Assembly (NCBI GenBank): GCA_947561715.1 | Contig: OX387197.1 | Span: 4,159,001-4,223,000, forward strand | Source: Ascidia mentula | Lineage: Eukaryota; Chordata; Ascidiacea; Phlebobranchia; Ascidiidae | Reading direction: 5' to 3' | DNA: 64,000 bases | In this document: positions 723-29,124 of the stretch, one piece after another | Numbering within the stretch: position 1 is the stretch's first letter | Layout: the number at the start of each line of letters is the position of its first letter | Notes under the pieces: generated by a model | The model's input: the letters and a program-made list of their open reading frames with translations, nothing else | Databases searched by the model: none | What the model was told of the DNA's origin: nothing | Position numbers and translations under genes: made by a program

Positions 723-3063
723 TTACAAATCATTGACATAAGGTACATTGTCGGGACACAAACTGTTAACATACGACCCATCAGGACATGGTCGGTCTTT
801 CATTGTTAAATATTCATCGGGTGACGTATCACCAACTTCCCTTGTTGGTGTTGCATTCTTCTTCGTTACACCGGATGTTGATGGTACCTCCTCGTATACG
901 TTCGCAGGATTTTCGACAAAAACATTCTTGTGCAGTGAGAGGAATGAATTGCGGTATTCGGAAATTTCGGAAATTTTTTCTGGTATCGCTTGTCCTGCAG
1001 GTTTCACAATATACCCACCTTCATATTCCGAAACTTGCACATCTTGATTAGCTTTTGCAACAGGGATATCAACATATAAACGGGGTTCCAAAGTTTTCTG
1101 GTATGCTGGTGGTTTGCCTTTCGTTTCTTCTTTTATTTGTTGTTCCGCTTCTTGGGAGAGTATGCTGTTTTGTTTCTTTGTCTTATTTTGCACAACGCAA
1201 GTTAATATCACAGCCAGTACTATTGCCAAGATTAAGGCTGCCACAGTTATTAAGACATTTCTAACCAAGGCGTTGTGTGCTTTGCTGTTGTAAGTTGTTG
1301 CGTTGTTGGTCGCAATCGATCTAGAACATTCAACGTTGGAACCAAAATACCTTTCCGTGTTGTTGTAAGTTGCCCAGTCAGTGTATTGCTCACAAACACA
1401 CGAAGGAGTTTGCGAAATGTGTTTTTTGTCGCAGACGGTTGAAAGTCTGGGGAAGTACAAGATACCAATATTTGTTGGGCATTTCCACGGGTTGTTCGAT
1501 ACCACTGTTTGAATTTTGGTGTTAAATGAATTTATCCCAAGTGGCCTAAGCGTCGACAGATTGGAAAAATCGTTGCTTGAAATATCCAAGTATGCCAGGT
1601 TCGGGAAAAATCTTATGAAATCTGGATGTAATATTTTAATTCTGTTTCCATTTAATTTGAGCGATGCCAGAGTTGCGTTGACATAAAGTAAAGGCTCCAC
1701 TGTCTCTATTTCGTTGTACGACAAGTCTAGATTGTAAAGCACGGAGTTAGGTATATAAAATGCCAAACTTTGCACATAACGAATTCTGTTATGACTGAGG
1801 TTGATTATCTCAGCACTGACAAGATTCTGAAAGCCGTAATCTTTAATACCAGTGATATTTGTGTAGTGTAAGTTAAAATCACGAAGATATTTCAGAGCAT
1901 AATCAGTTGTGCTTATCAGTGACGAGACGTTGGGAAATATTTTAGTCACGTCAACTTCGCTAAAATATAAAAAAGATCTGCTTGATAGTGAATTAGTCCA
2001 CTGTGTGCTGTTGTGTTTCAAAACAAAGTTTTTGCATTTTGTGATGCTTAAGACATCTATCGTTGGGGGAAGTTTCCCATAACCTTTTGCTTGTGGGAGG
2101 TTTTCCAAAATAATCCTTGCAGCGTTAGGAGGTAAATTTACAGTTTCCAGTCCCGATATATCCTTCAGAGTAAACTCAACAACGCTGACAGCATCCTTGA
2201 ACGAAAACAATGTATCAAAACACATCCCGGAAACTTGGAGTATTGAAACATTTGCGATCGACGTAAGATTTGTTAGATCCAATCCAATATGTCCGACATG
2301 TAAGTTTCTAAGAGATGTTGACCTTAGTCCGTCCAAGCTTTTAAACGTATTGTTTGCAATTTCGAGCTGGTAGAGTTTTGGAATTACTCTGTTCCAATCG
2401 ATATCTTTTAGTGATGAAATCTTATTGGAATCAAGCCAAAGATAAGTTAAACTTGTTGAACTTTGTCTCCCGAATATGTTTGTCAGATTGGTTATCATGT
2501 TTTTGTGTAAGTTTAGGTACCCGATGCTCAATGGTAGCCTGTATATGGCTGTAAGCTTGTTGTAGCTAATATTTAACCTTCTGAGAGAGACAAATTCTTC
2601 CAGAGTAGTTCCTATGGTTTGTAGTTTGTTGAGTGAAAGATCGAGGTCGGTTAAGTTGGCCTTCGCCCATGCTGGGAATGTTGGGAGGATCGTCATTCTA
2701 ATACGGAAAAATATAACGTTAATTTACAACAAATGTTGACCGAACTTGAAAAATTACTTTGTTTTGAAGTTTCGGTATTGTTGGACTCAAGGATAGAAAT
2801 TTACTGTGCTTCTCCACCTAACTGACTTACCCGTTATTGTAGAGGAAAAGTGTGTTAATATGCAGACTATTGTTAATTAGAGGAATGTCAGATCTTGCTC
2901 TTCCACTGCAGTCCAATATGTCCGACCAGTACTTACAAGTCGACCAGTTTCTTGGGACTATATACGTCGGTAGAGATAAACGTGTTGGAAATCCAAAATT
3001 CGCAGCAGCGCGATGAGTCGCTGCCAGCAAAATCATTAACTGCACTAGGTTCCTCAACATCAT
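723..3063 (-). CDS. L1: transmembrane LRR receptor with tyrosine-rich signalling tail
   Basis: Two exons, 3063-2831 and 2697-723, are joined by a phase-2 GT-AG intron and give 735 residues. Exon 1 starts MMLRNLVQLMILLAATH, a signal peptide, followed by an LRRNT cap (CKYW...DCSGRARSDIP). Exon 2 begins MTILPTFPAWAKANLTDLDL and carries about 16 LRRs, some degenerate in the middle. An LRRCT cap (NNPWKC...CVCEQY) follows, then a helix (VAALILAIVLAVILTCVV) and a tail of about 150 residues. The tail holds a YxxM motif (DEYLTM, a PI3K p85-type SH2 site), several YxN motifs (YRNS, YVNS, YVNDL, Grb2-type) and the block GGYIVKPAGQAIPE. There is no TIR domain, death domain or strict ITIM. By architecture it is a cell-surface recognition receptor that could recruit SH2 adaptors; the ligand is unknown. 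It is a close paralogue of L4. Confidence 0.9.
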
Positions 3064-4080
3064 GTTGTTACTTATGTATGTTGAACAATATAAGTTCCAT
3101 CAACTATTGAAACATACAAATTAGCGGTATAGTACTTTTAATTCATTATCATAAATGATAGTCCCAAATTCAGACAGAAAAACCTGCACTGTCTGCCTTC
3201 GTGTATTTTCTCTCAAATTATTGCGTTGATTAACAAATTATTGCGCTCAGCTAAGTAAACCAAACCAAACTCAACTTAATTAGTTTTCTATGCCTGCTCT
3301 GTAATTCCTTGCTGTTTCGCAAGAGCCTTGAGACGCACAACCTCCAAACAAGAGCAACGAATTTTATGCCGTCTATAATCTTTTCACAGCTTTTTCGTGC
3401 TATGACTGGTCTTCCGCTCTCGTCAAGCAAATATTTTCGTTCAGCCGAAACCTTACACCCCTGCTAAGTAGTGGCTTTTACCGTATCGTGCTGTATCATC
3501 ACGTTTTAAACATCAATCAATCGTGGTAACTTTTGCGTGGGTTTAATCATAAACGGATTTTCCCTCCAAGTTGCAGACACATTCGTGAATATACATGTAT
3601 TCATTCGCTATAATATACATGTTTATTTGGCGATTAATACCTGCATAACCCTGCACAACATTCGTGTTTGTTTTCGCTTTCATTTACTTATTTCTGTGTT
3701 TGAATCCGTTCTTATTCTATTCTCATCATTGTAAGCCTATTTATGAAAGAAAGATGATGTTGTTGTTGACCTTCACCATATTTTATTTTGTTTATGGTAC
3801 ATCTATGTAGGCATATAAATATGTGTACAAACATACAGTAGAAAATTTAAATCGAACAACAAACAGTATATATTGATGTTGCGTGAAATAGAAAGATTAT
3901 ATAAGGTAGACGTTCCCAAAATCATTACATTGAACGAACAAAACACTACGAATATTTGCGTAACTCTACCTAGGTTCAAAACATCAATTTAAAAGTGCGC
4001 TAGGTAAAATTTTTGATGTGAAACAAACGAATCGTGGTAATCGGGACCTTTTGAATTATCTACAATTTTTGCCATGCAGA
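3064..4080. other. L1 upstream region and remnant 3' flank of a GPI-type gene
   Basis: The part from about 3120 to 3560 resembles the region upstream of L4 (about 15,840-16,200), including a CAGACAGAAAAA stretch and a TTCCGCTCTC block followed by AAGCAAATATTTT, a one-mismatch octamer near 3424. From about 3700 to 4080 the sequence instead resembles the 3' flank of L3 (about 8,880-9,350). The junction between L1's promoter side and a foreign 3' flank lies inside this interval. No gene seen. Confidence 0.5.
3949..3960 (-). promoter_or_regulatory. Shared 3'-flank element CGAATATTTGCG, copy 1
   Basis: The 12-base string CGAATATTTGCG, read on the plus strand, recurs downstream of each GPI-type stop codon: here, at 9198-9209 (L3), 18183-18194 (L5) and 22791-22802 (L6). 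This copy sits below the LRRCT fragment at 4081-4436 rather than directly below L2. It probably lies in the 3' untranslated region. It may be functional or simply part of the duplicated unit. Confidence 0.45.
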
Positions 4081-4436
4081 TTAAATTTGACACAAAGCAA
4101 ATATCAAACCCACCAGGGTCATCATAACCCTTCGAATCACAATTCTATGTTTTTTGAGTTTGTTGATTGATGCGTTATTTGAAGAACCTGCTGGGCATTC
4201 AATGGTGGGTCCAATATATCTCCACGTAACGTTGTAGCCAAACACAATATCCAACCTTGGCAGTTCCACTGGTTGTTCGTTACCACTATGTCAACGGGGG
4301 ATCGAACTCGTTCTAAAACTGTTAACTTTGTCGGGAGAACACTTGTGTCGTTTGGTTTATAAGATGTACAATGGCAGTCGTTTGGGTTGGGAAAGAAAGA
4401 AATGTGAAACTTGAAAGGTTTGTAAATCATATCCAA
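4081..4436 (-). pseudogene. LRRCT-plus-anchor fragment of an L3-like gene
   Basis: Two reading frames together resemble the last quarter of a GPI-type family member: NDTSVLPTKL, NNQWNCQGW, then RYIGPTIECP and the hydrophobic end VMMTLVGLIFALCQI. The end is closest to that of L3 (VLMTLAALILALCNI), and the sequence below 4081 also matches the L3 3' flank. The two parts are in different frames, and much of the second half of the LRRCT is absent. It starts four bases after the stop of L2, so L2 appears to have been placed beside, or recombined into, the remains of an older gene. It is not expected to make a protein. Confidence 0.75.
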
Positions 4437-4439
4437 GTT

Positions 4440-6406
4440 TCAAATGTCGTACAATAATAATGCTACCAGGGTCAACAAAAGGTTTTCAATCAGACCACCA
4501 TGTGCGTTAGCTTCATTCGTTGGAGTATATGTGTTAGGTGTTGGTGCGATCGTTGTTGTTGAACACTCAACGGTGGGTCCAATATACCTCTCTGATGCGC
4601 TATAACTTGATCCATAAAAGTATGTCTGACAAACGCAGGAATGATTTGACGATCTAAAGCTCACATGGCATTGGAGAGTTAGACCGCGGGTGTTCGTTTT
4701 TCCGACCCAACCTTGGCAGTTCCAAGGGTTGTTCGCTACGATGATATCGAGATGGCCAAACGTTTGTTCAGTGACCGCTAACTGTGTTGGAAGAACACTT
4801 GTGTCGGTTAAGTAGTTGCTTGAAATATCGATGATGGTATTCTTTGTGGGATATGCAGTAAAACCAGGATGTAATTTTTTGATTCTGTTTCCATTCAATT
4901 TCAAGAAAGTCAAACTTGCGTTGATGTAGACTAGAGGTTCAATGCTCTCTATTTCATTGTACGACAAATCAAGGGTGTGAAGGTTCGAGTTGGGAATAAA
5001 AAAAGCCAAGCTTTGCACTTGACGAATTTTGTTATTGCTGAGTTTAATTTCTCCAACAACGGCAAGATTCTGAAAACCGTAGTCTTTTATCCCAGTTATG
5101 TTTGCAAAGTGTAAACTAAAAATAAATAAGTTCTGCAGAGGATATTCAGTTGTACTTATCAGTGACGTGCTGTTGGGAAATATTTTTGCAACGTCAACTT
5201 CGTTAAAGTATAGCTTCCATCTGCTGGCCCATTCCATGCTGCTGTCGGATTTCATGGCAAAGTTTTTACATTTGGTGATGAATAACTCCCTTACCCGTGG
5301 TGCAGGCTGCGCAAAACCTATCCCTTGTGGAAGGTTCTTCAAGGAGACAGTGTGAGCATTTGGCGGCAAATCTATTGTTTCAAGTCCAGAGATATCTTTG
5401 AGGGTAAAATCAGTAACGTTTGCAGCATCCTTAAAAGAAAACGATTTTTCAAAACACATCCCGGAAACCTGGAGTTTCCAAACGTGTGTGGTTGACGTCA
5501 AATTTGTCAAATCCAATCCGTTTTGTCCGATATGCAAGCTGATTAGTGATTTGGGTCCCAATCCGTTCAAGTTTGCAAACTTGTTGTTTGTGATATCGAG
5601 ATGTACGAGATTTGGAGTAATTTTGCTCCAATCAATGTCTTCAAGTGAGGAAATCTTGTTGGAACCAAGCCAAAGATAATTTAATTTTGTCAATATTTGC
5701 CCACCAAAAATGTTGGTAAGATTGCTTATCATATTGTTTTGTAAATCTAGGGACCTGATGCTCAATGGTAACCTGTATATGGTTGTAAGCCTGTTGTAAC
5801 TGATATTTAAATATTGAAGAGAGTTACATTCTTCCAGAGTAGTTCCTATTGTTTGTAGTTTGTTGAATGATAGATCGAGGTCGGTTAAGTTGGCCTTCGC
5901 CCATGCTGGGAATTTTGGGAGGGTCGTCATTCTAAATTGGAAATAAATGAATAATATTTAAACAAAATATATTTCAGGATTGTCCTTGTTTAATCTTTTA
6001 TTAGTTTCCTATTGCCATCAGACTTGTTTACGTAAATAGATAGGAGAAGTCGCACCCTATGTTATGAACGTGATGACATTTTGCGTCAACAGTTTGATGT
6101 AATATATTTCGCTTCTATATTAAAACACTTTTTACGTCCCGTACTTACACCATATAAAAAGTATGGTACTTACTCGTTGTTGTTGAGAAAAAGATAGGTT
6201 ATATCCATGGTATTGCTTAGTAGAGGGATGTCAGATTTCCCTCTTCCACTGCAGTCCATGACTTTAAACGAGTACCAGCAAGTCGACCACTTTGTTAGGA
6301 AATCGACCGGCGGAATCAATCTGCGTTTGGGTAATTGAAACTTCGCATTAGCTTTTCGTGTCGCTGACAGCATTATTAACAACTGCACTAAGGTGCACAA
6401 CAACAT
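4440..6406 (-). CDS. L2: LRR receptor with GPI-anchor-like C-terminus
   Basis: Two exons, 6406-6174 and 5931-4440, join in phase 2 and encode 574 residues. The chosen start gives the signal peptide MLLCTLVQLLIMLSATRKA and then an LRRNT cap (CWYSFKVMDCSGRGKSDIP). Exon 2 starts MTTLPKFPAWAKANLTDLDL and holds about 16 LRRs and an LRRCT cap (NNPWNCQGW...SCVCQTY...VEC). A Thr/Pro-rich stalk (TTTIAPTPNTYTPT) precedes the C-terminus. The protein ends NAHGGLIENLLLTLVALLLYDI-like: a small-residue cluster followed by a short hydrophobic run and no basic tail, as in GPI signals. It would sit on the outer membrane face without its own signalling domain. A short, poorly anchored helix or splicing to an unseen exon are alternatives. 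Many NxS/T sites suggest heavy glycosylation. Confidence 0.85.
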
Positions 6407-6600
6407 GCTCTTACTGACTTGTGTTTCAAAAAGAACCTGCAACGAGAAAATCCAACACATTTGCGCTAAATAAGATATTGTTTAATGATATAAACTTGCT
6501 CTTCTGGACAGAAATGCTTTAATATATCTTTACTTCAACAATCTTTATAAATTGAACTTTTTGTCTTTACTCAAAACTCCTTCCCTTAGTGGTTTACAAC

Positions 6601-7032
6601 AATCTGTTGCGAAACACGCAGTCCTCAGCTTGTGCATTGCATTATATATGACTCCTGTCGTCCCACGTCATATCTATGTGCGTTTTTCCGCTTAGATACT
6701 TTGCAAATATGCTCGTTTAATTGTAACGTTACGTGACTGTGAGTTTCACGAGTGTAAATTTGTATTGTAGTTGGTTGCCCTGTTTTTGAAGTGTTTCATC
6801 AGCCTTACCACACCTTGATGTTAAATAATGAAATGTTGCATTTTTGTCGTTTGATTTCCTGGAATTTTTGCGTTGGTTTGTTCGAACAAATTTTTTCATG
6901 GTATAGTTTCATTGTCACTACATATAAATTTACAGACAATAACCCTGGGGTTTGCGCATGCTACTTTAACTTTGACGTCACAGCATTTTGCGATCTGTGT
7001 GCGATTTTCCGGTTTCTTATTATGCAAATATT
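6601..7032. repeat. Duplicated upstream block, copy A (L2)
   Basis: By-eye similarity to 12072-12510 runs the whole length. Both begin AATCTGTTGCGAAAC and share GACTCCTGTCGTCCCACGTC, AACCCTGGGGTTTGCGCATG and GCATTTTGCGATCT. Both lie just upstream of a first exon, so they may be distal promoter sequence copied with the gene. Confidence 0.75.
7022..7029. promoter_or_regulatory. Octamer ATGCAAAT upstream of L2
   Basis: A perfect ATGCAAAT, the POU/Oct-factor consensus, lies 616 bases upstream of the L2 start codon within the duplicated block. A degenerate copy (TTGCAAAT, within 6711-6720) lies nearer the gene. Perfect copies recur upstream of L3 and L4. Binding is inferred only. Confidence 0.35.
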
Positions 7033-9197: not shown

Positions 9198-9209
9198 CGA
9201 ATATTTGCG
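9198..9209 (-). promoter_or_regulatory. Shared 3'-flank element CGAATATTTGCG, copy 2 (L3)
   Basis: The same 12-base string lies about 145 bases below the L3 stop, within a longer stretch resembling 3880-3960. Confidence 0.45.
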
Positions 9210-9351: not shown

Positions 9352-11916
9352 TTAAATGTTGCACAAAGCCAATATCAAAGCTGCCAAGGTCATCAAAACA
9401 TTTCGAATCACAGAACTCTGTTTTTTAGCTTTGTTGGTTGATACTTTGTTTGGAGTACTGGATGGGCATTCAACGACGTGTCCAATATATCTTCCTGTAG
9501 CGACGTCGCTCGCCGCTCTGGAATATTGGTGACAAACGCAAGAATGATGATGCGACGTAAAACCAGGGTTACAGAGGAGTGACACACTAGCGGTAATCTG
9601 CGTTCCTACCGAACCTCGGCAGTCCCACGGGTTGTTCATTACCACTATGTTTACGGTGGATCGTTGTCGTCCAAAAACTGGTAACTGTGTCGGAAGAACA
9701 CTTGTGTCGGTTAAATTGTTGCTTGAAATATTCATATAGATGAGCTGTGTTGGAAATACAAAAATACCAGGATGCAACTTTTTTATTCTGTTGCCATTAA
9801 GTTTGAGTGCAGCGAGACTTGTGTTCAAGTAAACCAGAGGCTCAATGGTCTCTATTTCGTTGTATGACAAGTCCAGAATGGAAAGCCTCGGGTTGGGAAT
9901 AAAGAAAGCCAAACTTTGTACGTGTCGAATTTTGTTGTGACTTAGACTAATCTCGCTAACAGAAGCAAGATTCTGAAAACCGTAGTCTTTGATCCCGGTA
10001 ATATTTGCAAAATGTAAGAAAAAACTTCTATGATCTTTGAGGGGATAGTCATTTGTACTAAACAGTGACGTGCTGACAGTGGGAAAAATTTTTTTTGCGT
10101 CAACTTCGCTAAAATATATTTGCCAGCTGCCTGCCCACTCCAGGCTGTTGTCGGGTTTCATGGCAAAGTTTTTGCATTTGGTGATGACTAATTGGCTTAC
10201 AGTAGACGGAAGCTGCGCAAAACCTTTCGCCTGTGGGAGGTTCTTCAAGGAGACGATGTACACTTTTGGCGGCAAATCTATTGTTTCAAGTCCAGAGATA
10301 TCTTTCAGAGTGAAGTCTTCAACGTTTGTGGCATTCTTGAAAGAAAACGATTTTTCAAAACACATCCCGGAAACCTGGAGTTTCGACACATTTGCGATTG
10401 ACGTAAAATTTGTCAAATCCAAGCCGTCGTTTCCGACATGTAAGGTAATTAGTGATTTTAGTCCGTTCAAGTCCGCAAAAGTGTTGTTTGTGATTTCAAG
10501 GTGTTGTAGATTTGGAAACATTGTGTTCCAATCGATGTCTTTAAGTGAGGAAATCTTGTTGGAATCAAGCCAAAGATATTCCAAACCTGTAAAAATTTGT
10601 CCGGCAAAAATGTTGGTGAGGTTGCTAATCATGTTGTTCTGTAGATTTAAAGTTAAGATGGTCGTTGGAAACCTGGATACGGTTGTGAGATGATTATAAC
10701 CAATATTTAAATTGCGCAAAGAAACAAATTCTTCCAGAGTAGTTCCTATTGTTTGTAGTTTGTTGAATGAAAGATCGAGGTCGGTTAAGTTGGCCTTCGC
10801 CCATGCTGGGAATGTTGGGAGGGTCGTCATTCTATAGGTGGAATAAATTTAAAGTATTTTAAAGAAAAATAATTTTTTTATATGTACAAGTTTAGGCTTT
10901 CAGCAGTTTCAGATTGCCAGTGGACTTGTTTACGTAAATGAAAAGCTTTACACCCTTTGTGATCGCGTCGATCCTATAGTGTCTTGTAACTGTACGTACA
11001 ATTAAAGGAGTTTGACGTCATGGAGGGGAATATGTGTCATACTAAAATCGCCTTATGTTGAAAATACGGATTAGTTTGAAATATAGAAGAATCCACAAAT
11101 TACGTCACAAAGGTGCTGTGACACCACACAAAAATACATCACTGTGACTTCACTAATCAAAGGTTTATTAGTCTCTGATTATTGGCAAACATAAGTGCTT
11201 TCGTAGCAAAAATACCCTGTCCCAGTAGCAGTTTTATTACTACACAACTAAATAAGACCTAAAAGGTCTAAACAGCGATCATTTGTATGTCCGCAGTTGA
11301 AATAAACAATCGCAATATGTTTGTTTAACTTATTCATTGTTGTGTTCCTGTTCTTTGTAAAACTACCAAAGCAGTTTCACAATATACTCATAATATAAAA
11401 AATTCCTACGCATGAGGCTCGCTGCCTGCTCTCACACGACTGAATCGCCTTCTATGAATTTTTTGCGATTACGCTCGAAACTATTTTAAACGTAACTTTG
11501 ATCAGCTGTATCTCAGAAACCTGTGGCCGTATCAAGCTACGCCAAAAGTTAAAAGTTATGTTTGTTTTTGTATTTTAAATATTTAAGATTTTAATTTTCT
11601 ATGTCACATGCACATTAAACAGTATTTACAGTCGTATCTGGAATTCTTTTATCCATACCTCATGCAATAAACATAGTGCTTACTTGTTATTGTTAAGATA
11701 AAGATGGGTAATATGTAGAGTATTATTTAGTAGAGGGATGTCAGATATTCCTCTTCCACTGCAGTCAAGAAATTCCCACCAGTACTTACAAGTCGACCAC
11801 TTTGTTAGATGGGTACCGGTTGGAATTGCTCTGTGTGAGGGTACTGGAAACTCTGCATCAGCGTTTTGTGTCGCTCACAGCGTTATTAACAAATTTACTA
11901 TGGTGCACATCAACAT
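9352..11916 (-). pseudogene. L3: GPI-type LRR receptor with a stop in its signal peptide
   Basis: The LRR exon (10831-9352) is fully open for 492 codons: MTTLPTFPAWAKANLTDLDL, about 16 LRRs, an LRRCT cap (NNPWDCRGS...CVCHQYS...VEC) and a GPI-like end (SVIRNVLMTLAALILALCNI). Exon 1 (11916-11684) keeps its ATG, the LRRNT cap (CKYWWEFLDCSGRGISDIP) and a good donor, and its phase fits. Codon 14, at 11877-11875, is TGA. The aligned codon in L2 is TCA, so this looks like a single C-to-G change in the hydrophobic core of the signal peptide. Unless another start or allele exists, no secreted product forms. Loss looks recent because the rest is intact. Sequencing error is possible. Confidence 0.8.
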
Positions 11917-12171
11917 GTTCCCACTAAATTGTGTTTGGGATAAATAAGACATTATATATTGACATAAACTTGCCATTCTGCACAAATAATCTTTGTATAT
12001 CTACAAAGCCATTATCAATCTTTCTTTAACATATCTTTATTTCGTTTAACTTTATGTCTTCAATCAAAAGCAATCTGTTGCGAAACTCGCAGTCCTCAGC
12101 TTGTGCATTGTATTATATGTGACTCCTGTCGTCCCACGTCACATCTATGTGCGCTTTTCCGCTTACATCAT

Positions 12172-12179
12172 ATGCAAAT
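12172..12179. promoter_or_regulatory. Proximal octamer ATGCAAAT upstream of L3
   Basis: Perfect ATGCAAAT 256 bases upstream of the L3 start codon, preceded by CTTTTCCGCTTACATCAT. The same order, TTCCGCT then ATGCAAATAT, occurs upstream of L4 at a similar distance. Confidence 0.4.
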
Positions 12180-12498
12180 ATGCACGTTTAATTGAAACGT
12201 TACATGAGTGTAAGTATAACGTCTGGGAATTTGCATTGTGGTTGGTTGCCCTGTTTTTGAAGTTTTCATCAGCCTTACCTCACTTTAATGTTGAGCAACG
12301 AATTGCTGTATTTTTGTGGTTTGATTTCCAAGGAATATTTGTGGTGGTTGTTGCACCAATTTTTTTGTTGGTATGGTTTCTAGTTTCTTTGTTTCTATAT
12401 ATTAACCTACAGACAATAACCCTGGGGTTTGCGCATGCTACTTTAACTCTCACGTCACAGCATTTTGCGATCTATGTTGGCTTTTTCGATTTCGTTTT

Positions 12499-15805: not shown

Positions 15806-16073
15806 GCTCTTACTTTTATATGTTATACAACTAATGGTCCTGTTAAATAGCGGTTAATTTTATTGCATTATTACAATTCCAGACAGAAAAAACTGCACAT
15901 ATCGAGAAAGAGTTGTGGCTTAATTATCCTCTCGTCGTTAATGTGTCTTCGGTTAACTTATCTTCACACCTAACCCAGCCATGCAAACTTTGACTCCTAA
16001 CTTATTAACTGAGCTTCGAAGCTTGTATGGTCTGTAACCGCCCTGGCGTGATGCATGGTCTTCCGCTCTCATT

Positions 16074-16081
16074 ATGCAAAT
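16074..16081. promoter_or_regulatory. Octamer ATGCAAAT upstream of L4
   Basis: Perfect ATGCAAAT 269 bases upstream of the L4 start, inside TTCCGCTCTCATTATGCAAA. Its position and context match those of the proximal L3 octamer. Confidence 0.4.
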
Positions 16082-16325
16082 ATTTTAGCTTGAACCACGA
16101 CCTTGTACGCATTAAGTGTGCTGGTGGCTTGCACCTTATCGTGCAACGTGTCATCACATATCAATCTTGCCAGCTCTGGTGTTTGTTGGATCAAAAATGT
16201 TGTCAAGCTATGCATATGGCAAAGTATCGTGGGCCGCTGTGAAAAGCATTTGTTGTCACGTGACATGTTAAATTGTTTATTGCGAACTAGGACGCTTTTA
16301 TTATACGCAAATGTTTTTGCTTGCA

Positions 16326-16446
16326 AGTTTTTGAACACGGCAGAAATCGGTATGGAATTACGTGTCCAAAATCCGAACTGCTCATTTCCTGCATTTTGGG
16401 CAGCTAACAGCATTAGCATAAACTTCACCAAGGTGCGCAACATCAT
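16326..16446 (-). pseudogene. Orphan half first exon (signal peptide) upstream of L4
   Basis: The minus strand encodes MMLRTLVKFMLMLLAAQ, then EQFGFWTRNSIP, clearly the 5' half of a family first exon. After about 40 codons the similarity stops and upstream-block-like sequence takes over (TTATACGCAAATG on the plus strand), so the LRRNT cysteines and the splice donor are missing. The flank above it (about 16,510-16,570) resembles the one above L4. It is best read as a broken tandem copy of an exon-1 segment. Use as an alternative first exon is unlikely without a donor. Confidence 0.7.
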
Positions 16447-17603
16447 GCTCCAACTTGTTAATGCTGTGCAATTAATTCACAAGAAACTATGTAAGTGTAG
16501 GTATTAGTCCGATTTATTTCATTTCATTATTACATATAAGTAGCAATATCAGTGACAAAAAACTGCTCATTTCGATAAAAGTTGCTGTGGTTTATTTTTT
16601 TTCTTTAAGATATCTCTGTTCTCGGTTCCCTTTTATACATGGGTAAACGTGCCTTTGTGCAAAACTCAGTCGTGTCAGCTTTAAAACCAAAACCTGAACT
16701 TGAGCTTTTTTTTTCTCCCTTGTTTGCAATACCAATAGTTTCAGGTCCGAAACATAAAACATCCAACCAAAAGCAATGAATTTTGTGTAGAACCAAACTT
16801 TTATTTTACCGATTTTGCGAACGATGCGCTGTCTTCCGCTATCGTATTGCAACTAGATTTGTTTTTATCGGTATGTGTTGGCTGGATACAACAATATCGT
16901 GAGCTGTGTCATTACTTCATCAGTCTAGACAGCACACCATAATTTATGCTGAGTCGGAAACTGTTGGGTTTCGTTTATGTCGGTTCATATTCAGAATGTG
17001 ATGAGTTTGTTGTAATGTTTGCATCATATTAATCGTCGTGCTGCAATCCATGTTGGGAACGCCCACCTTATATTTAACATGTGTTACCTATTTTATGAAA
17101 ACTTGCGAACTAAATTGATCGTATTTTAGTTAGCACTTTTGTCCTTAAACCGTTTTAACTTGTACGAGTCGGATTCGCAAACGGATGATTAAAACTGCCG
17201 GTCATTTTAGTTGCATTTTTCCAGGAGAAACAACATTAAATTTTTCCAAATAACGCTTTTAAAATTGGCTGGGAAAGTTGTAAATAATTGCTTTGTAATG
17301 GTGAGTGGGGTGGGTTGGGATTTAACTAACTGAAGAAAGGAAGCTTTACAAAAATAACAACAATCACAAACTTGACTTTGCTTTATATTGATGGAGTAGA
17401 CTGCATAGACATATACATACAAACACATTTCAGTACATTTGCTTAAGACAATATTAAAAGTTGTTGATAAAGGAAAAAAGCTTTCTAAAAACATATATTT
17501 GGTTTTGCAACAGCAAGTACCAAGTCATTCGACAACGCTTGCTGCACACATTTGCCCTTTCCTGTTACTTTACAAAAAGTTACAAATGTTCCTATTTCTG
17601 TAA

Positions 17604-18389: not shown

Positions 18390-20270
18390 TCAAATGTCGT
18401 ACAATAATAATGCTGCCATGGTCAACAGAAGGTTTTTAATCAAACCACTATGTGCGTCAGCTTCATTAGTTGGTGTATATGTGTTATGTGTTGGTACGTT
18501 CGTTGTTGTGGAACACTCAACGGTGGGTCCAATATACCTCCACGATGCGCTGCGACTTGATCCGACAGAGTATTGCTGACAAACGCAGGAATGATTTGAC
18601 GATTTAAAGCTCGTATCGCAGTAAAGAGTTACTCTGTGGGTTTTCGGTTTTCCGACCCAACCTTGGCAGTTCCACGGGTTATTCGTTACGAAGATATCAC
18701 CGGTAACAAACGTCTGTCCAGTGACCGCTAACTGTGTCGGAAGAACACTTGTGTCGGTTAAGTAGTTGCTTGAAATATCGATGTACCTAAGCTTTGTTGG
18801 AGATGCAAGAAAACCAGGATACAATGTTTTGATTCTGTTTCCATGTAGTTTTAAGTTATACAAACCCGTGTTGAAACAATCCAGAGGTTCAACGGTCTCT
18901 ATTTCGTTGTAAGATAAGTCGAGGGTTTGAAGTCTTGAGTTGGGAATGTAAAAAGCCAAGTTTTGTACGTGACGAATACGGTTATTACTGAGTCCAATTG
19001 ATCGAGCATTGACAAGGTTCTGAAAACCGTAGTCTTTAATACCAGTGATGTTTGTAAAATGTAGGTTAAACTCACGAAGATATTTCAGAGGAAATTCAGT
19101 TGTGCTTATCAGTGACGTGACGTTTGGAAACACTTTGGTCGGGTCAACCTCGGAAAACAACAGCGAGGATTGAAAAGATTCTGAATGAGCCCAGAAAATA
19201 GTGGTGTCGTATTTCATGACAAAGTTTTTGCATTTGCTGATGGCTAAGTAGTGTACAGTTGACGGCAACTTCGCGAAACCTTTTGCTTGTGGAAGATTCT
19301 TCAAAGAGACAACTTGAGGTTTGGGGGGCAGCTCTATTGCTTCAAGTCCCGATATATCTTTGAGAATGAAATTTGTAACGCTGACAGCATGATTAAATGA
19401 AAACGATTTTTCAAAACACATCCCGGAAACCTGAAGATTCGACAAATTTGCGATTGACGTCAAATTCGTAAAATCCAATCCATTGTGCCCAACATGCAAT
19501 TCTTCAAGTGATTTTGGTCCCAGTCCGTCCAAGCTTTCAAACGTGTTGTTTTCAATTTCAAGATGAATCAGATTTGGAAACATTCCATTCCAATCGATGT
19601 CTTTAAGTGAGGAAATATTGTTGGAACCAAGCCAAAGATAACTTAATTTTGACAATGTAATATTGCTTAGATGGCTTATTATGTTTTTCTGTAGATTTAG
19701 GTATTCGATGCCTAATGGCAACCTGTATATGGTTGTAAGCTGGTTGTAACTGATATTTAAATGGCGGAGAGCGACTAATTCTTCCAGAGTAGTTCCAATT
19801 GTTTGTAGTTTGTTGAATGAAAGATCGAGTTCGGTTAAGTTGGCTTTCGCCCATGCTGGGAATGTTGGGATAGTCGTCATTCTAAATTGGAATAAATAAA
19901 ATTTAAATTAAATAAAAGTTACAAGTAACCGCTTAGTGAATCCCCTTGTTTTCTGTGATACTAATGAAAAATCGTATTTAAACTGTTGGAACAAAATTTA
20001 AAATTGCATATTTACTGCAATTACTGCAAGCAGAGCTTACCCGTTGTCATACATGTAGAGGGTGGTAATATGCAGATTGTCGTTTAGTAGAGGAACGTCA
20101 GACCTTCCTCTTCCACTGCAGTCCATAAAATAAAACCAGTACTTGCAGGTCGACAATTTTTTTGTCACGATCTCGTCCGGTCTGGGAAGGCGTGACCAAA
20201 TTCCATAATGTGTTGGTGTTAAGGAGGCCGCCGCTCTTACTGCTATAAACAACACTAGTGTGCACAACAT
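18390..20270 (-). CDS. L5: LRR receptor with GPI-anchor-like C-terminus
   Basis: Exons 20270-20041 and 19881-18390 join in phase 2 and encode 573 residues. The signal peptide MLCTLVLFIAVRAAASLTP precedes an LRRNT cap (CKYWFYFMDCSGRGRSDVP). The LRR exon begins MTTIPTFPAWAKANLTELDL and has about 16 repeats. The LRRCT cap (NNPWNCQGW...SCVCQQYS...VEC) leads to a Thr/Pro stalk and the end NLLLTMAALLLYDI. There is no basic residue after the hydrophobic run, so a GPI signal is the simplest reading. The C-terminal third and 3' flank are very close to L6, pointing to a recent local duplication. No signalling tail is encoded. Confidence 0.85.
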
Positions 20271-21613
20271 ACTCCACAGAAGTTAGCCTGATACCAAACA
20301 GTAAAGATGACGATCAGACGCTAAACTTTTGGTTGCAATGTCACACCTCTTTTCTTTATTTTTTATTCGTTTTCGATCTTTATTCAAATGTATGTGAGCA
20401 TGAATCTTCCATAGCTTTATGACTAGAATAAATTCAGAAAGTTTCCAATCCTTATGGTTTATTACAGTGGTTATCAAACTTCTTTCCCTCGTGCTAACGG
20501 TTGTTAATAAGATTCACGACTCTTTGTAGCCACAACTATTCGTTAATTTGGACGATGAGTCGCTTTGTATGCAATTCTTATTTGAAGAAGGCTGGCTTAA
20601 TTTGCTTATTGCCTGCATTTTCCGTCAAAATATATAACCTTTCTTGTTTAGTTTCTTACTCGAAACTTCACGACGGACAGTTTAAGACCTTCTCGTTTAT
20701 GCAGTCAGACATGTAGCACACAAACGCTTGCAACTTATTTTGTTTGTCGTCTCCAATTTCACCATCATCACATCGTTGTAGGCTGGCTAAGTGCGGTCTC
20801 ACACTCTTAGTGTTGTATTGGGCAAGTTGTGTCGTGCGTTAAATCCGTGTGTAGGACTTGGATATCCTTTTCCCTGACTTGCAAAACACCATTAGAAGAC
20901 TCACGACTAGAAAACGTTCCACGAAAAATGTTCCGCAATTAACCTGATACTAGTAAACAAAACGAAACAATGCCGAATATTTGATTGCAATGTCATATTA
21001 AAGAGCAATTATTGACAAATACCCTGCTAATTAAAAATGTTGGTGAATATTTTGTCTCATTTCTTTTCTGTATCTGCTTTTTCATTCCTTTTTAAATGGT
21101 ATTTACACTCAACTTACTTATATAGGCTTTATAACCAAACTAAACGGAAACATTTTGCAACGTTTGTTGCTGATAAAATCAGGCACGTAGCAAACAAACC
21201 CGTGCATTTTTCTTTGCCTCTTATACTACATCATTACGTGTGGTGTTCCGCTGTCACTACGCGCACATTTTGTTCATGTGTTTGGCGATTTGCGCCGAAC
21301 GTGCTCGAAGCTTGCGTATATTTTTTTCTCCATTTGTCATAAAATGTAACAGACCTCATGAGCAGAAATCGTTAAATTTCGGTTGCTGATTGACTTGTGT
21401 GGTTTGTCCGCCATTTACTTTTCGTGAGTTTTACTTTGTGTCTTCCCCGACACAATTCACACCAAGTATAGAAATGGTGAAAGTTTCGTTTACAATTGAT
21501 TGCCTTAAGAATATTATCTTTGTAGAGGCGCACAACGGTCATTTGTATCGTTAAATGTGGAATTTATCCATGATCTATACATATTTAAAAGCCAGTCGCT
21601 TCATCGTACATAC
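20271..21613. other. L5 upstream region
   Basis: Non-coding. A block near 21,235-21,260 (GTTCCGCTGTCACTACGC) resembles one upstream of L6 near 24,722-24,750 (CTTCCACTGTCACTACGC). These are the counterparts of the octamer-bearing block of the other genes, but here no intact octamer remains. No gene seen. Confidence 0.45.
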
Positions 21614-21820
21614 TCGTTGTTGTAGAGTAAAAGTTGGGTGGAAGGCAGACTGTTGTTAAGCAGAGGAGTGTCGGATCCGTCTCTTCCACTGCGGTATATT
21701 TCCAATACTTGAAAGTCGACCAGCTTGCTGGCGTATAACGAGGTGGAAGGCTCGTCTAGTAAACTCACACAGGCCTCTGAATACAACCACGAAAATCTGT
21801 ACTAAGTTGTACAGCACCAT
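21614..21820 (-). pseudogene. Orphan degraded first exon
   Basis: It begins MVLYNLVQIFVVVFRG, a signal-peptide-like start matching L4 and L1. Its end reads SDTPLLNNSLPSTQLLLYNNE with a GTATGT donor in the family position. The two ends are in different frames, and the LRRNT cysteine of DCSGRG is replaced (YRSGRD). No LRR exon follows before the L5 first exon. It is a dead first exon left by duplication. Confidence 0.75.
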
Positions 21821-22880
21821 ACCTTGTGTTCTGCTATTGGCCTAAAATACAAAATCGTGATGCGTGATGTTAAATTGGATTGTGACAAAACGTAGTAATT
21901 TCTGACAGCAAAAACCTGCACAAATTGTTACAAATCTCTATTTCGTTTCTCTTGCTTTCTTTTTAACTTTTTGTTATTGCACTACGCTCAGCAATATGAG
22001 CTTTTCAATCAGAGTTATGTCTGAGAGTTTGTTAAACTTTTACATAACTATTATAGTTCCTGAAGTCAGGCACGAAACACGTGCAACGTACTTTATGTTG
22101 AAAATCTCTAGTCAGAGCACTTTTCGAGGTATGCGCGGCTGTCGACTCACAAAGTGCTCATATTTTCCTCATGCCAAAACGTCACACACATGTATTGCGG
22201 TGGGTGGCACCGTATCGTGGCCTGGGAATCTCATTACTAAACCCACACTCGCTCTTGATGTTGGTTGAGACAGAAGTTTTATTTTTATCGCTTGTTATTC
22301 AGGATGTGTTCAGTTGGTTTCAATGATAAACATGCTTAGATTGTGATAACTTCGATCCCCAATGACATGTTAACGGCGAATGGAGATCTTGGTTCTGTTC
22401 TTGTGCTTTCATTTCTTTAACTATTTCCATTTATATTTAAAGCCTTGTGCCTTATTTTTAATGTTCCTAGCGACTGGGTATCTACTTTTCCATATTTCGG
22501 TTGTCATTGTTAAAAAAAAAATTTTCTTTCTTATGTTCAACATCTGGGCCATTAGTGGTTGTGACAAAAAAACGATTGAAAGAGGATTCTGTTGTTAACC
22601 TCGACTACATTTATTTGTGCGTATTGTACATCTTCTGTATACAATGACAGTAAAAAGTTTAATACGTTTGTCAACACATAAGTCAATGATAGTAGTAAAC
22701 ATGCAATGATGTCACTTCCTTTGTTTCTACTTGTGTCAAATAGCAAGCTTATGACGAGTAAACAAAATCCTTTTCACAAACAAAAATCAACGAATATTTG
22801 CGTGACAGCGAAGGCAGAAGTTGTGACTGTAGAACGAAGAAACGATGAAACTTGGAGGGTTTGTGAATCATATCCACGTT
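21821..22880. other. Spacer between orphan exon and L6
   Basis: Non-coding. The upper half is upstream flank of the orphan exon. From about 22,490 it becomes 3' flank of L6, matching that of L5. Confidence 0.5.
22791..22802 (-). promoter_or_regulatory. Shared 3'-flank element CGAATATTTGCG, copy 4 (L6)
   Basis: Fourth copy of the 12-base string, about 80 bases below the L6 stop. Confidence 0.45.
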
Positions 22881-24415
22881 TTAAATGTCGTACAATATTA
22901 ATGCTGCCAGGGTCAACAAAAGGTTTTCAACCAGACCACCATGTGCGTTAGCTTCATTAGTTGGGGTATACGTGTTAGGTGTTGGTGCGATCGTTGTTGT
23001 TGTTGAACACTCAACGGTGGGTCCAATATACCTCCGCGAATTGCTGCGAATTATTCTATCAGAGTATTGCTGACAAACGCAGGAATGATTTGACGATTTA
23101 AAGCTCGTATCGCAGTTGAGAGTTACACTGTGGGTTTTCGGTTCTCCGACCCAACCCTGGCAGTTCCACGGGTTGTTCGTTACGAAGATATTAACGGTAC
23201 CAAACGTCTGTCCAAAGACCGCTAACTGTGTCGGAAGAACACTTGTGTCGGTTAAGTAGTTGCTTGAAATATCGATGGACCTAAGCTGTGTAGGAGATGC
23301 AATAATACCCGGATGCAATGTTTTGATTCTGTTTCCATGTAATTTTATGTAAAGCAAACTTGTGTTCAAATAAACTAGAGGTTCAACGGTCTCTATTTCC
23401 AACAAATGTGCGACTGACGTCAAATTTGTCAAATCCAATCCATTGTGCCCGACATACAATTCTTGAAGTGGTTTCGACCCCAGTCCGTCCAAGCTTTTAA
23501 AGGTGTTGTTTTCAATTTCGAGATGAATCAGATTTGGAAACATTTTGTTCCAATCACGATCTGTAAGTGAGGATATCTTGTTGGAACCAAGCCAAAGATA
23601 ACTTAAATTTGATAACTTCTGCCCACCAAAAAATGTGCTCAGATGACTTATCATATTATTCTGTAAATGAAGAGAATCAATGCTGGGGGGAAACTTGTGT
23701 ATAGCTGTAAGCTGGTTGTAGCTAATATTCAATCTTGTGAGAGCGACTAATTCTTCCAGAGTAGTTCCTTGTTTGTAGTTTGTTGAATGAAAGATCGATG
23801 TCGGTTAAGTTGGCCTTCGCCCATGCTGCGAATTTTGGGAGGGTCGTCATTCTAAGTGAAAATTAAAGGCGATTATTATTAGATCGACGGAACGATAAAG
23901 TTACCAATGGACAATTGAACTGCATATTTTTTACCATTATTTTCAACATTTTGAATGTGTCATTGTACTCATTTACTATGCAGAAGCGTTCTGCATCGAA
24001 TAACATTTTGGGAGACAATCCCTCCCCCCCTTTAAATTCCAACAATTATATTTTAATTTTTGTGCACGACTGTAACAAAGTTCTTTTGGCAAATAAGGAC
24101 AAGCCCAACACTTTGCAAGATATAAGAAGCATCTTTGAACGATTGCAAACGGAATAATCTTATATAAACTTCATATAGTACTTACCCATTGCCGTGCAGG
24201 AAGTGAATTTTGATCTCCATACTACTGTTTAGTAGAGGGATGTCGGATCTCCCCCTTCCACCGCAGTCCATGGTGTGGATCCAATACTTGCATGTCGACC
24301 ATTGTTTTATCGTGGTTTTCTCCGGTATAGGATAAAACCGCGAATTTCCAAAATATTCTTGTCCGACATTTGGGGTCGGTGCCAGCGCCAGAAACAGCAT
24401 TAATTTACACAACAT
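22881..24415 (-). pseudogene. L6: frameshifted, internally deleted GPI-type LRR gene
   Basis: Exon 1 (24415-24186) is intact: signal peptide MLCKLMLFLALAPTPNVG, LRRNT cap (CKYWIHTMDCGGRGRSDIP) and a good donor. Exon 2 (23851-22881) begins MTTLPKFAAWAKANLTDIDL. After about 30 codons it has a 2-base deletion relative to its paralogues (near 23,768) and goes out of frame. The family frame is open again from about 23,732 to the stop. Inside it, roughly 200 residues, about half the repeats, are missing in frame: LTSVAHL is joined directly to EIETVEPL. The LRRCT cap, stalk and GPI-like end are preserved and nearly identical to L5. It is a pseudogene as written. Confidence 0.8.
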
Positions 24416-25302
24416 GGTCCACAATTAACCTGATACTATTTAACAAAACGAAAGAACGCGAAATGTTTGATTGCAATGTCACATCAAAGAACAATTCTAA
24501 ACAAATACCCTGCAATTTGAAAAGTTCCCTTTTTAATATATCTTTGTTGTCATTCGTTTTTCTATGGTCTTTACACGAAACTTACCCACACCCCACCCCC
24601 ACACTGTAAACCGAACTAAAGCGAGACGTTTCAAAACGCTTGCAATGTATACAGTGAGGTACGTAGCACTCAGACCCATGCATTTTTTCTTTGCCTCGTA
24701 CCGCATCATTATAGGCGAGCTATGCGTGGTCTTCCACTGTCACTACGCACATATTTCCGTCGTGTATTTTGAAAGTCGTGTCGTTGTTTACGCACGTGCA
24801 CGAAACTTGCATATCTTTTTTCTTTAGTTGCCGAATAACATTACAGACCTCGCGACCTGAAATTGTTCAGTTTCGGTTGCTGTTGGGCTTTTGTGGTTTG
24901 TTTACTTTTTGTAAGCTTTACTTTGTGTCTTCCCTGGCACAAATCCATACCAAGTACAAATGGGAAAAGTTTCGCTACCGCATTTTTACTTTATGACGCA
25001 ACTTTAGGGTGCGTTTGGTTTAATTTCAAATTTTCAGCAAGTTGGCATCACTGCGTCCATGCGTTATTCCGGATGCTTTGCAGAATGAACAACTTCAGTA
25101 GTTTTTGCTGTGAAACAAACGAAAAATATAGTTTTATTTATAATTGTTATACAACAAGCCTGTCATGCTTGGTTACCAAAAAACTTTCGAATTGGATCTG
25201 TTTTTTTGTGTAGGTTTGTGCGTTCTTTGTTCTAGTAAATTCAACAGAGGTGTCGTTATGCCTCTCCAAAGTGTTTAACTCGACCCGTCGCTAAATTGCC
25301 GA
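24416..25302. other. L6 upstream region
   Basis: Non-coding. It holds a diverged upstream block near 24,720-24,750 and otherwise nothing I can identify. From about 24,900 the sequence may be old 3' flank of the fragment at 25,303. Confidence 0.45.
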
Positions 25303-26418: not shown

Positions 26419-29124
26419 TTACTGAGCTTCCATGTAAACCTCTTCACTTTCTCGTCTTCTGTCGTTCTCGTATTCGTGGGTGGCTTGGTTTTCTCCGCTG
26501 GCGTACAACCTCGTAATCAGAGCACCCAAATTCCCGAAGCTCCGTCGATCGGCGAGATCCTCCACAGACAATCGGTTCACTGGCGTGTTGGTCGATGGGT
26601 AGTTGACGTACCCGTGCTCCACACGTGGTTGCGTCACGGGCTGAAAGGACTCCGGAACCGTCTGGCCCGCGGGCGTCACCATATAACCATCCTCGTAAAG
26701 TGATTTATCATTTTCTTCATTTAACTGTGGTCCTTTTTCTTTCATCTTCTCGAGGAATGTGGTCGGTCTGTTTGTGGGTTTGGGTGCATCTTTGTTTGGT
26801 CTCAAGCGCACTCTGTCATCGTCGGGCTCATCGTAAACGGATTTCGGATCTTCAGTCGAGGCGACCTGTTTGTCATCTTCCAGATAAACTGTCTCCGCAG
26901 TTGGGCTTGCCTCCGAGGGCGGTTTCTCCAGACTTGTGGGAATAGCGACGGTCGGACCCAAGTCCACGGGCCTGTGTTCTCGCAACGGCTTGCTACGTCG
27001 CTTTCTTATTACTAAACACACTGCGACAACTATTAGAACTATGAGAAGAAATCCACCTCCAGCACTTGCTCCTATGATAATGAACATAAGGTTTGAAGTT
27101 GAAGGAACGGTTGTTGAATATCCGCTCACTGAAGTCTCCGAATAAGGTTGGGTGATGGTTGGATAAAATGTGGTGCTGTTTCCAGTCTCTGTGCCGTTTC
27201 CAGCACTGCCACATGACACACTGCTAATGTACTTGCCTTTTTCGCTTACTGGCGTGTGGCAGATAACACATGGCACCGATGTTACGCTGCTCGTCTGTTC
27301 GCACACGAAGGAAACCAAGCTCGTTACTTTTGTGAAGGCGGTCACGTTTTCACAATCGCATGCCCACGGGTTGCCAATAGAAACGACCTTCAAAGCGTCA
27401 TGGGACAGATTTGCAAACGTGGAGAACTCAGTCAACAGGTTGTATGAGAGATCGAACACTCTCAATGCCTGCAAACCTCGCAGAAAACTTGCGTCAATCT
27501 TAATAATCCTGTTGCCCGCCAGGTTGAGGGAGGTGGGGCGGTTTATCGGGAGATCCGCATTGTATATTACGTCTATCAGGTTGTACGACAAGTCGATGTA
27601 GATCAGCCTGGAGTTGATTCGGAACGTGCTGAAACCGAAGCTTGTGAGTTTATTGTAACTCACAGTTAGGTTGGTGAGCTGGGTAAGGTATTGAACCCTT
27701 GCTGTTTCAATCTTCGTTATCGAGTTGTGTCTCATATTAAGCGTTGTAATGCTGTTTCCCGTGTTGCTGAACAATAATTCAGGTGCTTCCATGGCTGTGT
27801 AACTGCAGTTTTCCAGAATTAAATCTGTAAGTTTCCCCTGCAGAAATTCGAGTCTTGCTTGCAAACGATCGTTTATGTTAATATTCCTGAGGTGAAGGTA
27901 GGTCAAATTTGTCAAGGAATTGAGTAAAGGCACAAAGGAGATATACAGGAATGGGCAATCAGTGATGGTCAATCTTTTTATGGCAAGGGGAATAGTGCTG
28001 ATGGTTGTTATAGCCGTTAAGCTGCTGATTTCTAATTCAGTGATGTTGTTTGGAAGTGATATCACGATTTTCACAGCGTTGTTTCGCAGAAACAGTTGAG
28101 TTATCGTGGTGGTGAAATACTGCTTAGGGTAACTGCCTTGAATGCCGTCAAGTTCCAGAGTACTAAGATTTGCCAATCCGATCAAATCTTGTCCAGATGA
28201 TACGAATGTTGGATGGCCGAGTCGCAAAGTTTTGAGAAGGACGAGTGACGTTAGCTTGGTAAGACTTGTAAAATTATTTTGTCGAATATCGAGGTACAAT
28301 AAAGTGGAAGGCAAGGGGCCAAATGCCGTTAAATTGTTTGAGTTCAGCGTGAGAGTTTGTAAACCTGGCAGTTTGCTCTGCAAGTTGCCGATTCTCGTCA
28401 ATCGGTTTTGATCCAAAAACAGTATTTTCAACTGTATGGGGTCAGAAAGTTCTGGAAAGGCAAGAAGACCATTCTTACGAAATGAAAGGCCTCGGAGATT
28501 AGTCGCGCTATTCAAAAGTTTCGCATCCACGCTACTGAGTAGATTAGAGCTAAGATCCAAATATTGCAAGGATTTAAACCGCGTGAAAGCGTAACTGTCC
28601 ACAGATGCAATTCGATTTCCCGACAAGTCGATGTTAAGTAAGGTGACCGGCCAGGTTGTCAAGGAGTTTGCCTGGATCTTTGGAATTCTGCAAAAATCGG
28701 ATAAACAGTTGAATTTGTGGCGACTCGTGATTGTTCAAAGGAGAATTTTTTTGGTTTGTGACGAAAGTTAAGAAATAATCTTTTCTCATAAAAACAAATT
28801 TTGTTGTTAATCTAGTGAATGAGAGATATGCTATCCACGTTTTTAACTCAACCTTTAAAGAAACCGAATAAAGGAACAGCTTCCCACAACTTACCGATTG
28901 TTGTTCAGCAGCAGGGAAGTTACATTGTAATTCACATTTGGAAGTGGGATTGTCGTCCAATTTGCCCAAGCGCAATCTGCGATATTGTTGGAATACCAAC
29001 AGTTGATCGGTCTCGGTTGCGCAGGAGCGGCGACTCTTGTGAATGGGAGTTCTGGATCGCTAATTCCTCCCATTGCAAAACCAACGTTGATAATTAGAAC
29101 CAGAAAGAATCTTAAGTGTTTCAT
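26419..29124 (-). CDS. L7: divergent transmembrane LRR receptor with multi-tyrosine tail
   Basis: Exons 29124-28895 and 28687-26419 join with the same phase-2 intron as the array genes and encode 832 residues. The signal peptide MKHLRFFLVLIINVGFAMGG is followed by an LRRNT-like cap (CWYSNNIADCAWANWTTIP), then many LRRs (LLNIDLSGNRIASVDSYAF and following), an LRRCT cap (NPWACDCENV...C...CVIC), a Ser/Thr-rich stalk and a helix (GGGFLLIVLIVVAVCLVI). The tail of about 200 residues opens with RKRRSK. It has VYDEP (Nck-type SH2 motif), GYVNY (YxN), LYEDGYMVTPAGQTVPE, LYASG, EYEND and VYMEA. The YMVTPAGQTVPE block matches the L1/L4 tail, which together with the shared intron phase shows common descent despite a very different ectodomain. 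It may be the conserved founder or co-receptor. Confidence 0.9.

Follow-up and report, generated by a model that had tools for sequence, protein, structure and literature searches.

The 64,000-nucleotide stretch of the Ascidia mentula genome analyzed here (C1:4159001-4223000, hereafter the window) carries seven tandem leucine-rich repeat (LRR) genes, termed L1-L7, which span positions 29124 (L7 ATG) to 723 (L1 stop) on the minus strand and are found with two kinds of C terminus. L1, L4, and L7 end in a transmembrane (TM) helix followed by a tyrosine-rich tail, and L2, L3, L5, and L6 end at a short hydrophobic run resembling a glycosylphosphatidylinositol (GPI) attachment signal. The seven genes on one strand, their common exon plan with a phase-2 intron, and the two kinds of end had been proposed from the letters alone (the sequence-only reading), and the gene models bear this out; TM and tailless forms of one LRR family in tandem are real. 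New here is an upstream element common to the TM and short genes. The preferred reading, held tentatively and with slightly less than even confidence, is of a co-regulated LRR receptor family in which the TM forms signal and the GPI-like forms are tailless co-receptors or decoys, an organization like that of the CEACAM family.

The exon plan is the same in all ten modeled genes, seven in the window and three to its left (La, Lb, and Lc), with a signal/cap exon of 230-239 nt followed by one large exon and the intron being in phase 2 with GT and AG ends in 10/10. The gene-model script took phase-2 donors only; the same donors were also read without that condition, and in this reading the frame of the first exon ends at a conserved NN(G/K/E/R). 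Complete two-exon open frames are present in La, Lb, L1, L2, L4, and L5, and in L6 the frame shifts early in exon 2 and much of the mid-repeat region is lost. In the predicted protein, a signal peptide and an N cap with two cysteines precede ~16 repeats, after which comes a cysteine-rich C cap. In the close genes the N cap has two cysteines, with additional ones located within the signal peptide, and the C cap has five in 8/8 of those read, none of which (0/8) has the NPWxCxC motif found in L7 alone. A fold model with exon 1 omitted has a mean pLDDT (predicted local distance difference test) of 62.5, and the 50 matches listed in a fold search are general LRR solenoids (SHOC2, TLR2, TLR8, internalin, and others), which are uninformative on function.

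The C-terminal ends are clearly separated into two kinds. In the close TM members (5/5) a hydrophobic run of 22-24 amino acids is followed by 155-180 residues, part of which is unrelated sequence in Lc, and the tyrosine-rich tails after the helix in L1, L4, and L7 are 157-199 amino acids long. The short ends (5/5, comprising L2, L3, L5, the end of the broken L6, and one relic) have a hydrophobic run of 11-13 amino acids, two further residues, and the stop. Small residues sit 5-12 residues ahead of this run, and in L2, L5, and L6 a Thr/Pro-rich stalk precedes it. GPI signals usually have this arrangement of a terminal hydrophobic run with small residues upstream and a Thr/Pro stalk; the sequence layout of the short forms is compatible with such anchoring, which they probably undergo. 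Splicing of the short genes to tail exons would have spoken against the sequence-only reading, and no tail-like DNA is found downstream of 4/4 short genes (tblastn E 0.01, blastn E 1, thresholds at which a very diverged tail remnant could be missed). The short genes therefore seem to be without a tail exon of their own, and between L2 and L1 a relic ending in the short manner is all the family DNA that was found. Because all introns are in phase 2, a read-through transcript joining exon 1 of a short gene to exon 2 of a downstream TM gene is conceivable. Polyadenylation signals are scattered, with none within 1.5 kb of the L5 stop.

Searched with L1, the genome (195.8 Mb, 79 contigs) gives at least 20 matches, of which 15/20 are within C1:4141-4188 kb; the five off-cluster matches among those listed (28-37% identity over 87-153 residues) look like general LRR similarity. 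The tail searched alone up to E 10 gives eight matches, all eight inside this cluster, which extends 18 kb to the left past the window edge with La, Lb, and Lc as three further TM members. Identity to L1 is 57-84% for L2-L5, a likeness that by sequence comparison is far beyond chance, L6 is similar in pieces, and L7 is a distant relative with just 22-27%. The earlier notion of a seven-gene family stands with respect to this likeness and is amended in that L7 is distant, L3 contains a stop, L6 is broken, and the cluster is larger.

Comparison of the 800 nt before nine start codons (La, Lb, and L1-L7, with Lc scanned later) shows a short island of likeness upstream of both TM and short genes. 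The island is a 38-nt element that precedes 8/9 close members, being weakest before L2, with a core of approximately ATATTTGCATA-5 nt-AGCGGAAGACC containing the octamer ATTTGCAT and GGAA, which we take to be a POU octamer and an ETS core, respectively. A first profile from four seeds (L1, L4, L6, and Lb), with the opposite strand as null (best score 7.9), places Lc, L3, L5, and two relic exons above that null. Across the ten copies (eight genes and two relic exons) pairwise identity is 0.60 in the core compared with 0.27 and 0.29 in the flanks (50 nt each side). When left out one at a time, 10/10 copies outscore every opposite-strand site of 104 kb, the copies having been picked with the first profile and thus being not fully independent. 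With sister pairs left out jointly (L2,L3; L5,L6; L1,L4), 6/6 copies beat all opposite-strand sites, and with the four short copies left out, 3/4 (L3, L5, and L6) do so and two sites beat L2. A 26-nt pattern with up to two mismatches has four hits in the genome, all in the cluster (Lb, L4, L1, and L6), and none with the reversed control. A 23-nt pattern has 14 hits compared with 10 for the control, 3/14 being in the cluster and the two exact matches being those of Lb and L4; its hits outside the cluster look like background. The L2 and L3 copies are not independent because ~600 nt of upstream DNA, alike at 78%, are common to both genes. Since copies precede two relic first exons, the element travels with gene copies. 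It can be read most simply as a promoter or enhancer sequence kept by TM and short genes while the flanks diverged; alternatively it could be part of an untranslated exon. A shared promoter or enhancer would suggest expression in the same cells, and the TM and short genes are therefore probably made together.

The ectodomains of the TM and short forms are both under purifying selection, with dN/dS (the ratio of nonsynonymous to synonymous substitution rates) of 0.23-0.45 in 28/28 pairs drawn from the eight genes other than L6 and L7 and of 0.31-0.45 in the three short-short pairs. L2 and L5 keep 496-codon frames at dS 0.44 and dN/dS 0.45. A neutral simulation of a frame the size of L2 at 0.22 substitutions per site (substitutions only, equal rates) leaves 0/2000 frames open, with ~11 stops gathered; because of this and the low dN/dS, L2 and L5 are unlikely to be dead copies. 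With site classes taken from the strands of the fold model (mean pLDDT 62.5, exon 1 omitted), dN/dS on the concave repeat face is 0.29 in the TM trio, 0.48 in the short trio, and 0.74 for L2-L5, and in the scaffold it is 0.06-0.10. The stalk of the TM genes has dN/dS >1 (1.71 in the trio over 38 codon comparisons and 2.06 for L1-L4 over 14 codons), which was dropped as a selection signal, the codon sample being too small.

With L7 as root, the first branch of the protein tree is La, followed by Lc (76) and then by the TM trio (99) and the short group (94), the union of which has a support of 80. The short group of L2, L3, and L5 has an ultrafast bootstrap (UFBoot) value of 94 in this tree and also in the DNA tree. 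The unrooted DNA tree of eight ectodomains contains (Lb,(L1,L4)) at 100 and ((L2,L5),L3) at 94, with Lc uncertain at 48; inside the short group the protein tree pairs L2 with L3 (84) and the DNA tree pairs L2 with L5 (89). Because the short forms nest within TM forms under the L7 root, the tailless end is taken as derived, and on these trees the tailless forms descend from TM forms. Monophyly of the short group is unrejected in each third of the ectodomain (p-AU, from the approximately unbiased test, of 0.53, 0.42, and 0.49). In the middle third, L2 groups with L3 and the topology of the whole ectodomain is rejected (p-AU 0.0002), a conflict that lies among the short genes. Tail dS is 0.46 versus 1.75 for the ectodomain in La-Lb, and 0.14 versus 0.30 in L1-L4. 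As the tails are far closer than the ectodomains and the ectodomain topology is in conflict, parts of the genes appear to have been exchanged or homogenized.

Aligned with L1, L3 appears to lack 28 nt of the TM codons, a putative deletion after which the shifted frame runs straight into a stop. In 15 pairwise comparisons the empirical p for this deletion ranges from 0.002 to 0.68, uncorrected, the lowest by type being 0.002 (L3-L1), 0.009 (L2-La and L2-Lb), and 0.0175 (the relic with L1 and L4), and a profile test gives ~0.04 for L3, 0.04-0.10 for L2 and L5, and >0.095 for L6 and the relic. The gap position at the putative site varies by aligner, and 9/12 letters are identical there between L2 and La. 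As the origin of the short end, such a frameshift in the TM codons is weakly supported. A different change is seen in Lc, where likeness to the L1 tail stops approximately halfway and unrelated codons follow. A Transposase_21 (tnp2) open reading frame of 685 amino acids (L024:3123-5180 (-)) adjoins the Lc frame with a 29-base overlap, and its insertion may be behind the tail loss.

The intact tails of the close TM members (4/4; La, Lb, L1, and L4) have three YxN sites at the same places, the L7 tail has two, and the altered Lc tail has none. YxN docks Grb2, and YxxM docks PI3K. A GYxVxPAGQ-like tail motif is weakly common to L7 (tblastn 1.9e-4 in 104 kb; E 0.245 genome-wide). One tail site is EYSTV in La and Lb compared with EYLTM in L1 and L4. 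A motif scan of the La, Lb, L1, L4, and L7 tails finds no immunoreceptor tyrosine-based inhibitory (ITIM), switch (ITSM), or activation (ITAM) motif; one ITIM-like match occurs in the altered Lc tail, and under the looser Y..V usage of an amphioxus study the EYSTV of La and Lb would count as an ITIM (PMC8211107). The longer La/Lb site, HHEYSTV (DEYLTM in L1/L4), is similar to HDYSEV, an inhibitory site in amphioxus BbLcLRR, and because of this likeness and the difference between the two site variants the TM members may differ in signal. Tail tyrosines as a specially conserved class were considered and rejected, the difference from other tail columns being not significant.

The cluster is real and well delimited, and the known kind to which it corresponds is the TM/tailless receptor family such as CEACAM (PMC2832619), in which signaling TM and GPI-anchored members occur in a gene cluster, primate GPI forms arose by TM-exon mutation with decoy functions proposed, and ectodomains are kept alike by gene conversion. 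The genes here are likewise paralogues in tandem whose ectodomains match; some carry a signaling-type tail, others are tailless, and the tailless forms are derived from TM forms. CEACAM proteins differ in having Ig domains and ITIM/ITAM tails, whereas the proteins here have LRRs and intact tails lacking ITIM, ITSM, and ITAM; the analogy is one of organization only, and homology is not claimed. Amphioxus FrLRR resembles the short forms in its LRR ectodomain and predicted GPI end and acts in phagocytosis with Grb2, its authors raising an unknown mediator such as a co-receptor (PMC10199209). It differs as a fusion gene with a folate-receptor domain, and a clustered TM sister is unmentioned in the available part of that paper (PMC10199209). 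The TM forms resemble amphioxus BbLcLRR, an LRR-TM receptor of similar size (699 amino acids) with signaling tail tyrosines, among them the HDYSEV site noted above; it differs in being inhibitory in Jurkat cells, in its WSC domain, and in LRRNT/LRRCT assigned by SMART, and the available text does not mention a tailless form (PMC8211107). Because BbLcLRR signals, as an inhibitor, an LRR-TM receptor with tail tyrosines can signal (PMC8211107).

The sequence-only reading had also drawn a link to the agnathan variable lymphocyte receptors (VLRs). These and amphioxus Bf66946 have, as here, a secreted-type LRR ectodomain with a terminal hydrophobic region and differ in their cap cysteines, the genes here having ~16 repeats, complete germline copies, and tailed TM sisters (PMC4731796). 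Whole L1 has no match to PF01462 or PF01463 at E up to 1 and thus no canonical LRRNT or LRRCT, and six genes are whole in the germline. A VLR has LRRNT and LRRCT caps with two disulfides each, and its germline gene is incomplete and is completed from flanking cassettes. VLR membership fails because the caps are non-canonical and the genes are complete in the germline. Pfam scans of L1, L2, L4, and L7 find no TIR domain, the cytoplasmic domain that marks Toll-like receptors. Ciona TIR-less TLR-like genes are alike in encoding ascidian LRR proteins without a complete TIR, thought by the authors to act in recognition, and the comparison differs in that GPI, LRR-only, and tandem are absent from the paper's text (PMC12816324). 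Among PDB sequences the best matches are to GARP/LRRC32 and LRRTM2, and TLR-type and VLR chains appear lower in the list. No account of TM and GPI forms within one LRR family of a tunicate was found in the open-licence literature, as judged by titles, opening lines of abstracts, and parts of papers. The tunicate source had been correctly recognized: the COX1 frame (contig C79) contains 18 AGR codons, several of which fall on glycines regarded as universal, and needs the ascidian mitochondrial code. Allorecognition, offered as one possible role, finds no support, and PMC11109543 describes the species as solitary in its title.

In the preferred reading the short members would descend from a TM ancestor through loss of the entire tail together with part of the membrane helix, with the remaining 11-13 C-terminal hydrophobic residues serving as a GPI-attachment signal. 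Both kinds would be made in the same cells via the common upstream element, the short forms holding ligand at the surface without signaling, as co-receptor or decoy. The TM tail, once tyrosine-phosphorylated, would dock Grb2-type SH2 adaptors at the three conserved YxN sites, and the TM forms would signal, most likely for microbe uptake. The signaling role is argued by analogy from the FrLRR and BbLcLRR precedents. The idea of paired forms in the sequence-only reading gains support from the shared upstream element and the selection on both forms; its division into activating and decoy roles is a guess. A more specific version, which is doubtful, is a two-part LRR system in which lipid-anchored recognition chains and Grb2-coupled chains of one gene origin, with a shared promoter element, would be partners on the same phagocytes.

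Several observations weigh against the preferred reading. Two of the four short genes are damaged (L3 by a TGA in the signal peptide and L6 by its broken frame), with L2 and L5 intact. The L2 copy of the element scores 6.4 with the first profile, under the opposite-strand best of 7.9, nothing above that null precedes La and L7, the L5 copy is 1 kb upstream, and a site scoring 17.3 at -18230 precedes no known gene. Invariant tail columns are 7/12 for tyrosine compared with 59/136 for others (Fisher p 0.37). A hydrophobic run of 11 amino acids is near the lower limit for GPI signals. Positive selection on the exposed repeat face, which the sequence-only reading suggested checking, is not found between paralogues, where repeat-face dN/dS is never >1 and hence there is no arms-race signature.

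The damaged short genes and the several relics are also what a birth-and-death cluster would contain, in which the TM genes are working receptors and the short genes truncated functionless copies nearing loss; the TM gene that has lost approximately half its tail, with the Transposase_21 frame adjoining, fits this as well. This explanation is rather unlikely given the 496-codon frames of L2 and L5 at dN/dS 0.45, the values of 0.31-0.45 in short-short pairs, the ~11 stops that a neutral frame of L2 size gathers in simulation, and retention of the upstream element before L3, L5, L6, and more weakly L2. The length of the hydrophobic end, 11-13 amino acids, raises the alternative that the short forms are secreted or cleaved soluble proteins, or tailless TM proteins needing a surface partner, instead of being GPI-anchored, which is improbable as the run ends the protein, small residues are located 5-12 residues before it, and L2, L5, and L6 have the Thr/Pro stalk. 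The PDB matches to GARP/LRRC32 and LRRTM2 and the purifying dN/dS are compatible with adhesion or gamete/tissue recognition molecules, pairing for graded adhesion, in place of immune receptors; this too is unlikely, since a single-locus expanding cluster with relics and recombination would be more usual for defense genes.

Table 1. Coordinates of family exons, relics, and upstream elements (window positions, negative values being left of the window; offsets in parentheses as given for each gene)
Feature	Description	Position	Strand
Relic	Family relic, right-hand part, running on leftwards past window; probably TM type (tail-end fragment follows)	1..403	-
L1 exon 2	LRRs, LRRCT-like cap, TM helix, Tyr-rich tail, stop TAA	723..2697	-
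L1 exon 1	Signal peptide and 2-Cys N cap, phase-2 donor	2831..3063	-
L1 element	(-374)	3400..3437	-
Relic	Short-type 3' end, resembling L3 end	4093..4403	-
L2 exon 2	LRRs, LRRCT-like cap, Thr/Pro stalk, GPI-like short end, stop TGA; intact	4440..5931	-
L2 exon 1		6174..6406	-
L2 element	(-305), weakest gene copy	6674..6711	-
L3 exon 2	Short form, frame open	9352..10831	-
L3 exon 1	In-frame TGA within signal peptide	11684..11916	-
L3 element	(-266)	12145..12182	-
L4 exon 2	TM and Tyr-rich tail	13246..15250	-
L4 exon 1	Donor GTCAGT	15573..15805	-
L4 element	(-281)	16049..16086	-
Relic exon 1		16327..16446	-
Relic element	Before relic exon 1 at 16446	16822..16859	-
L5 exon 2	Short form, intact	18390..19881	-
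L5 exon 1		20041..20270	-
L5 element	(-1001)	21234..21271	-
Relic exon 1		21616..21752	-
Relic element	Weaker, before relic exon 1 at 21752	22129..22166	-
L6 exon 2	Short-type end, frameshift and internal deletion	22881..23851	-
L6 exon 1		24186..24415	-
L6 element	(-342)	24720..24757	-
L7 exon 2	Distant relative, TM and Tyr-rich tail	26419..28687	-
L7 exon 1		28895..29124	-
Lc	TM type, altered tail	-2341 to -4848	
Lb	TM type	-10551 to -13190	
La	TM type	-15364 to -17756	

Left of the window, at a distance of roughly 19-28 kb, two more LRR-TM genes with tyrosine-rich tails are located on the opposite strand, the first at L022:1766-3985 (+) and the second extending from L022 about 9001 or earlier into L023 (+); one of the two carries a canonical LRRNT. 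Judged by sequence, the LRR-TM/tyrosine-tail architecture is abundant across this region. Elsewhere in the genome tandem LRR open frames of ~1000 amino acids, perhaps TLR-like, are found at C71:10014-10030 kb and C67:8854-8875 kb. To the right of the cluster four long open frames are present on the minus strand (32698-34161, 40045-41190, 52613-53155, and 55889-56662), with Pfam matches for 0/4 at E 0.001.

Signaling/tailless receptor pairs are well known among mammalian Ig-type receptors, and the same pairing made independently with tunicate LRR receptors would show its repeated origin. The shared upstream element directly predicts co-expression of the two forms, and the cluster would provide a compact single-locus system for testing how a tailless LRR receptor signals into the cell. 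If the two-part system is true, the TM chains would represent the type of tailed partner called for by the work on FrLRR in amphioxus.

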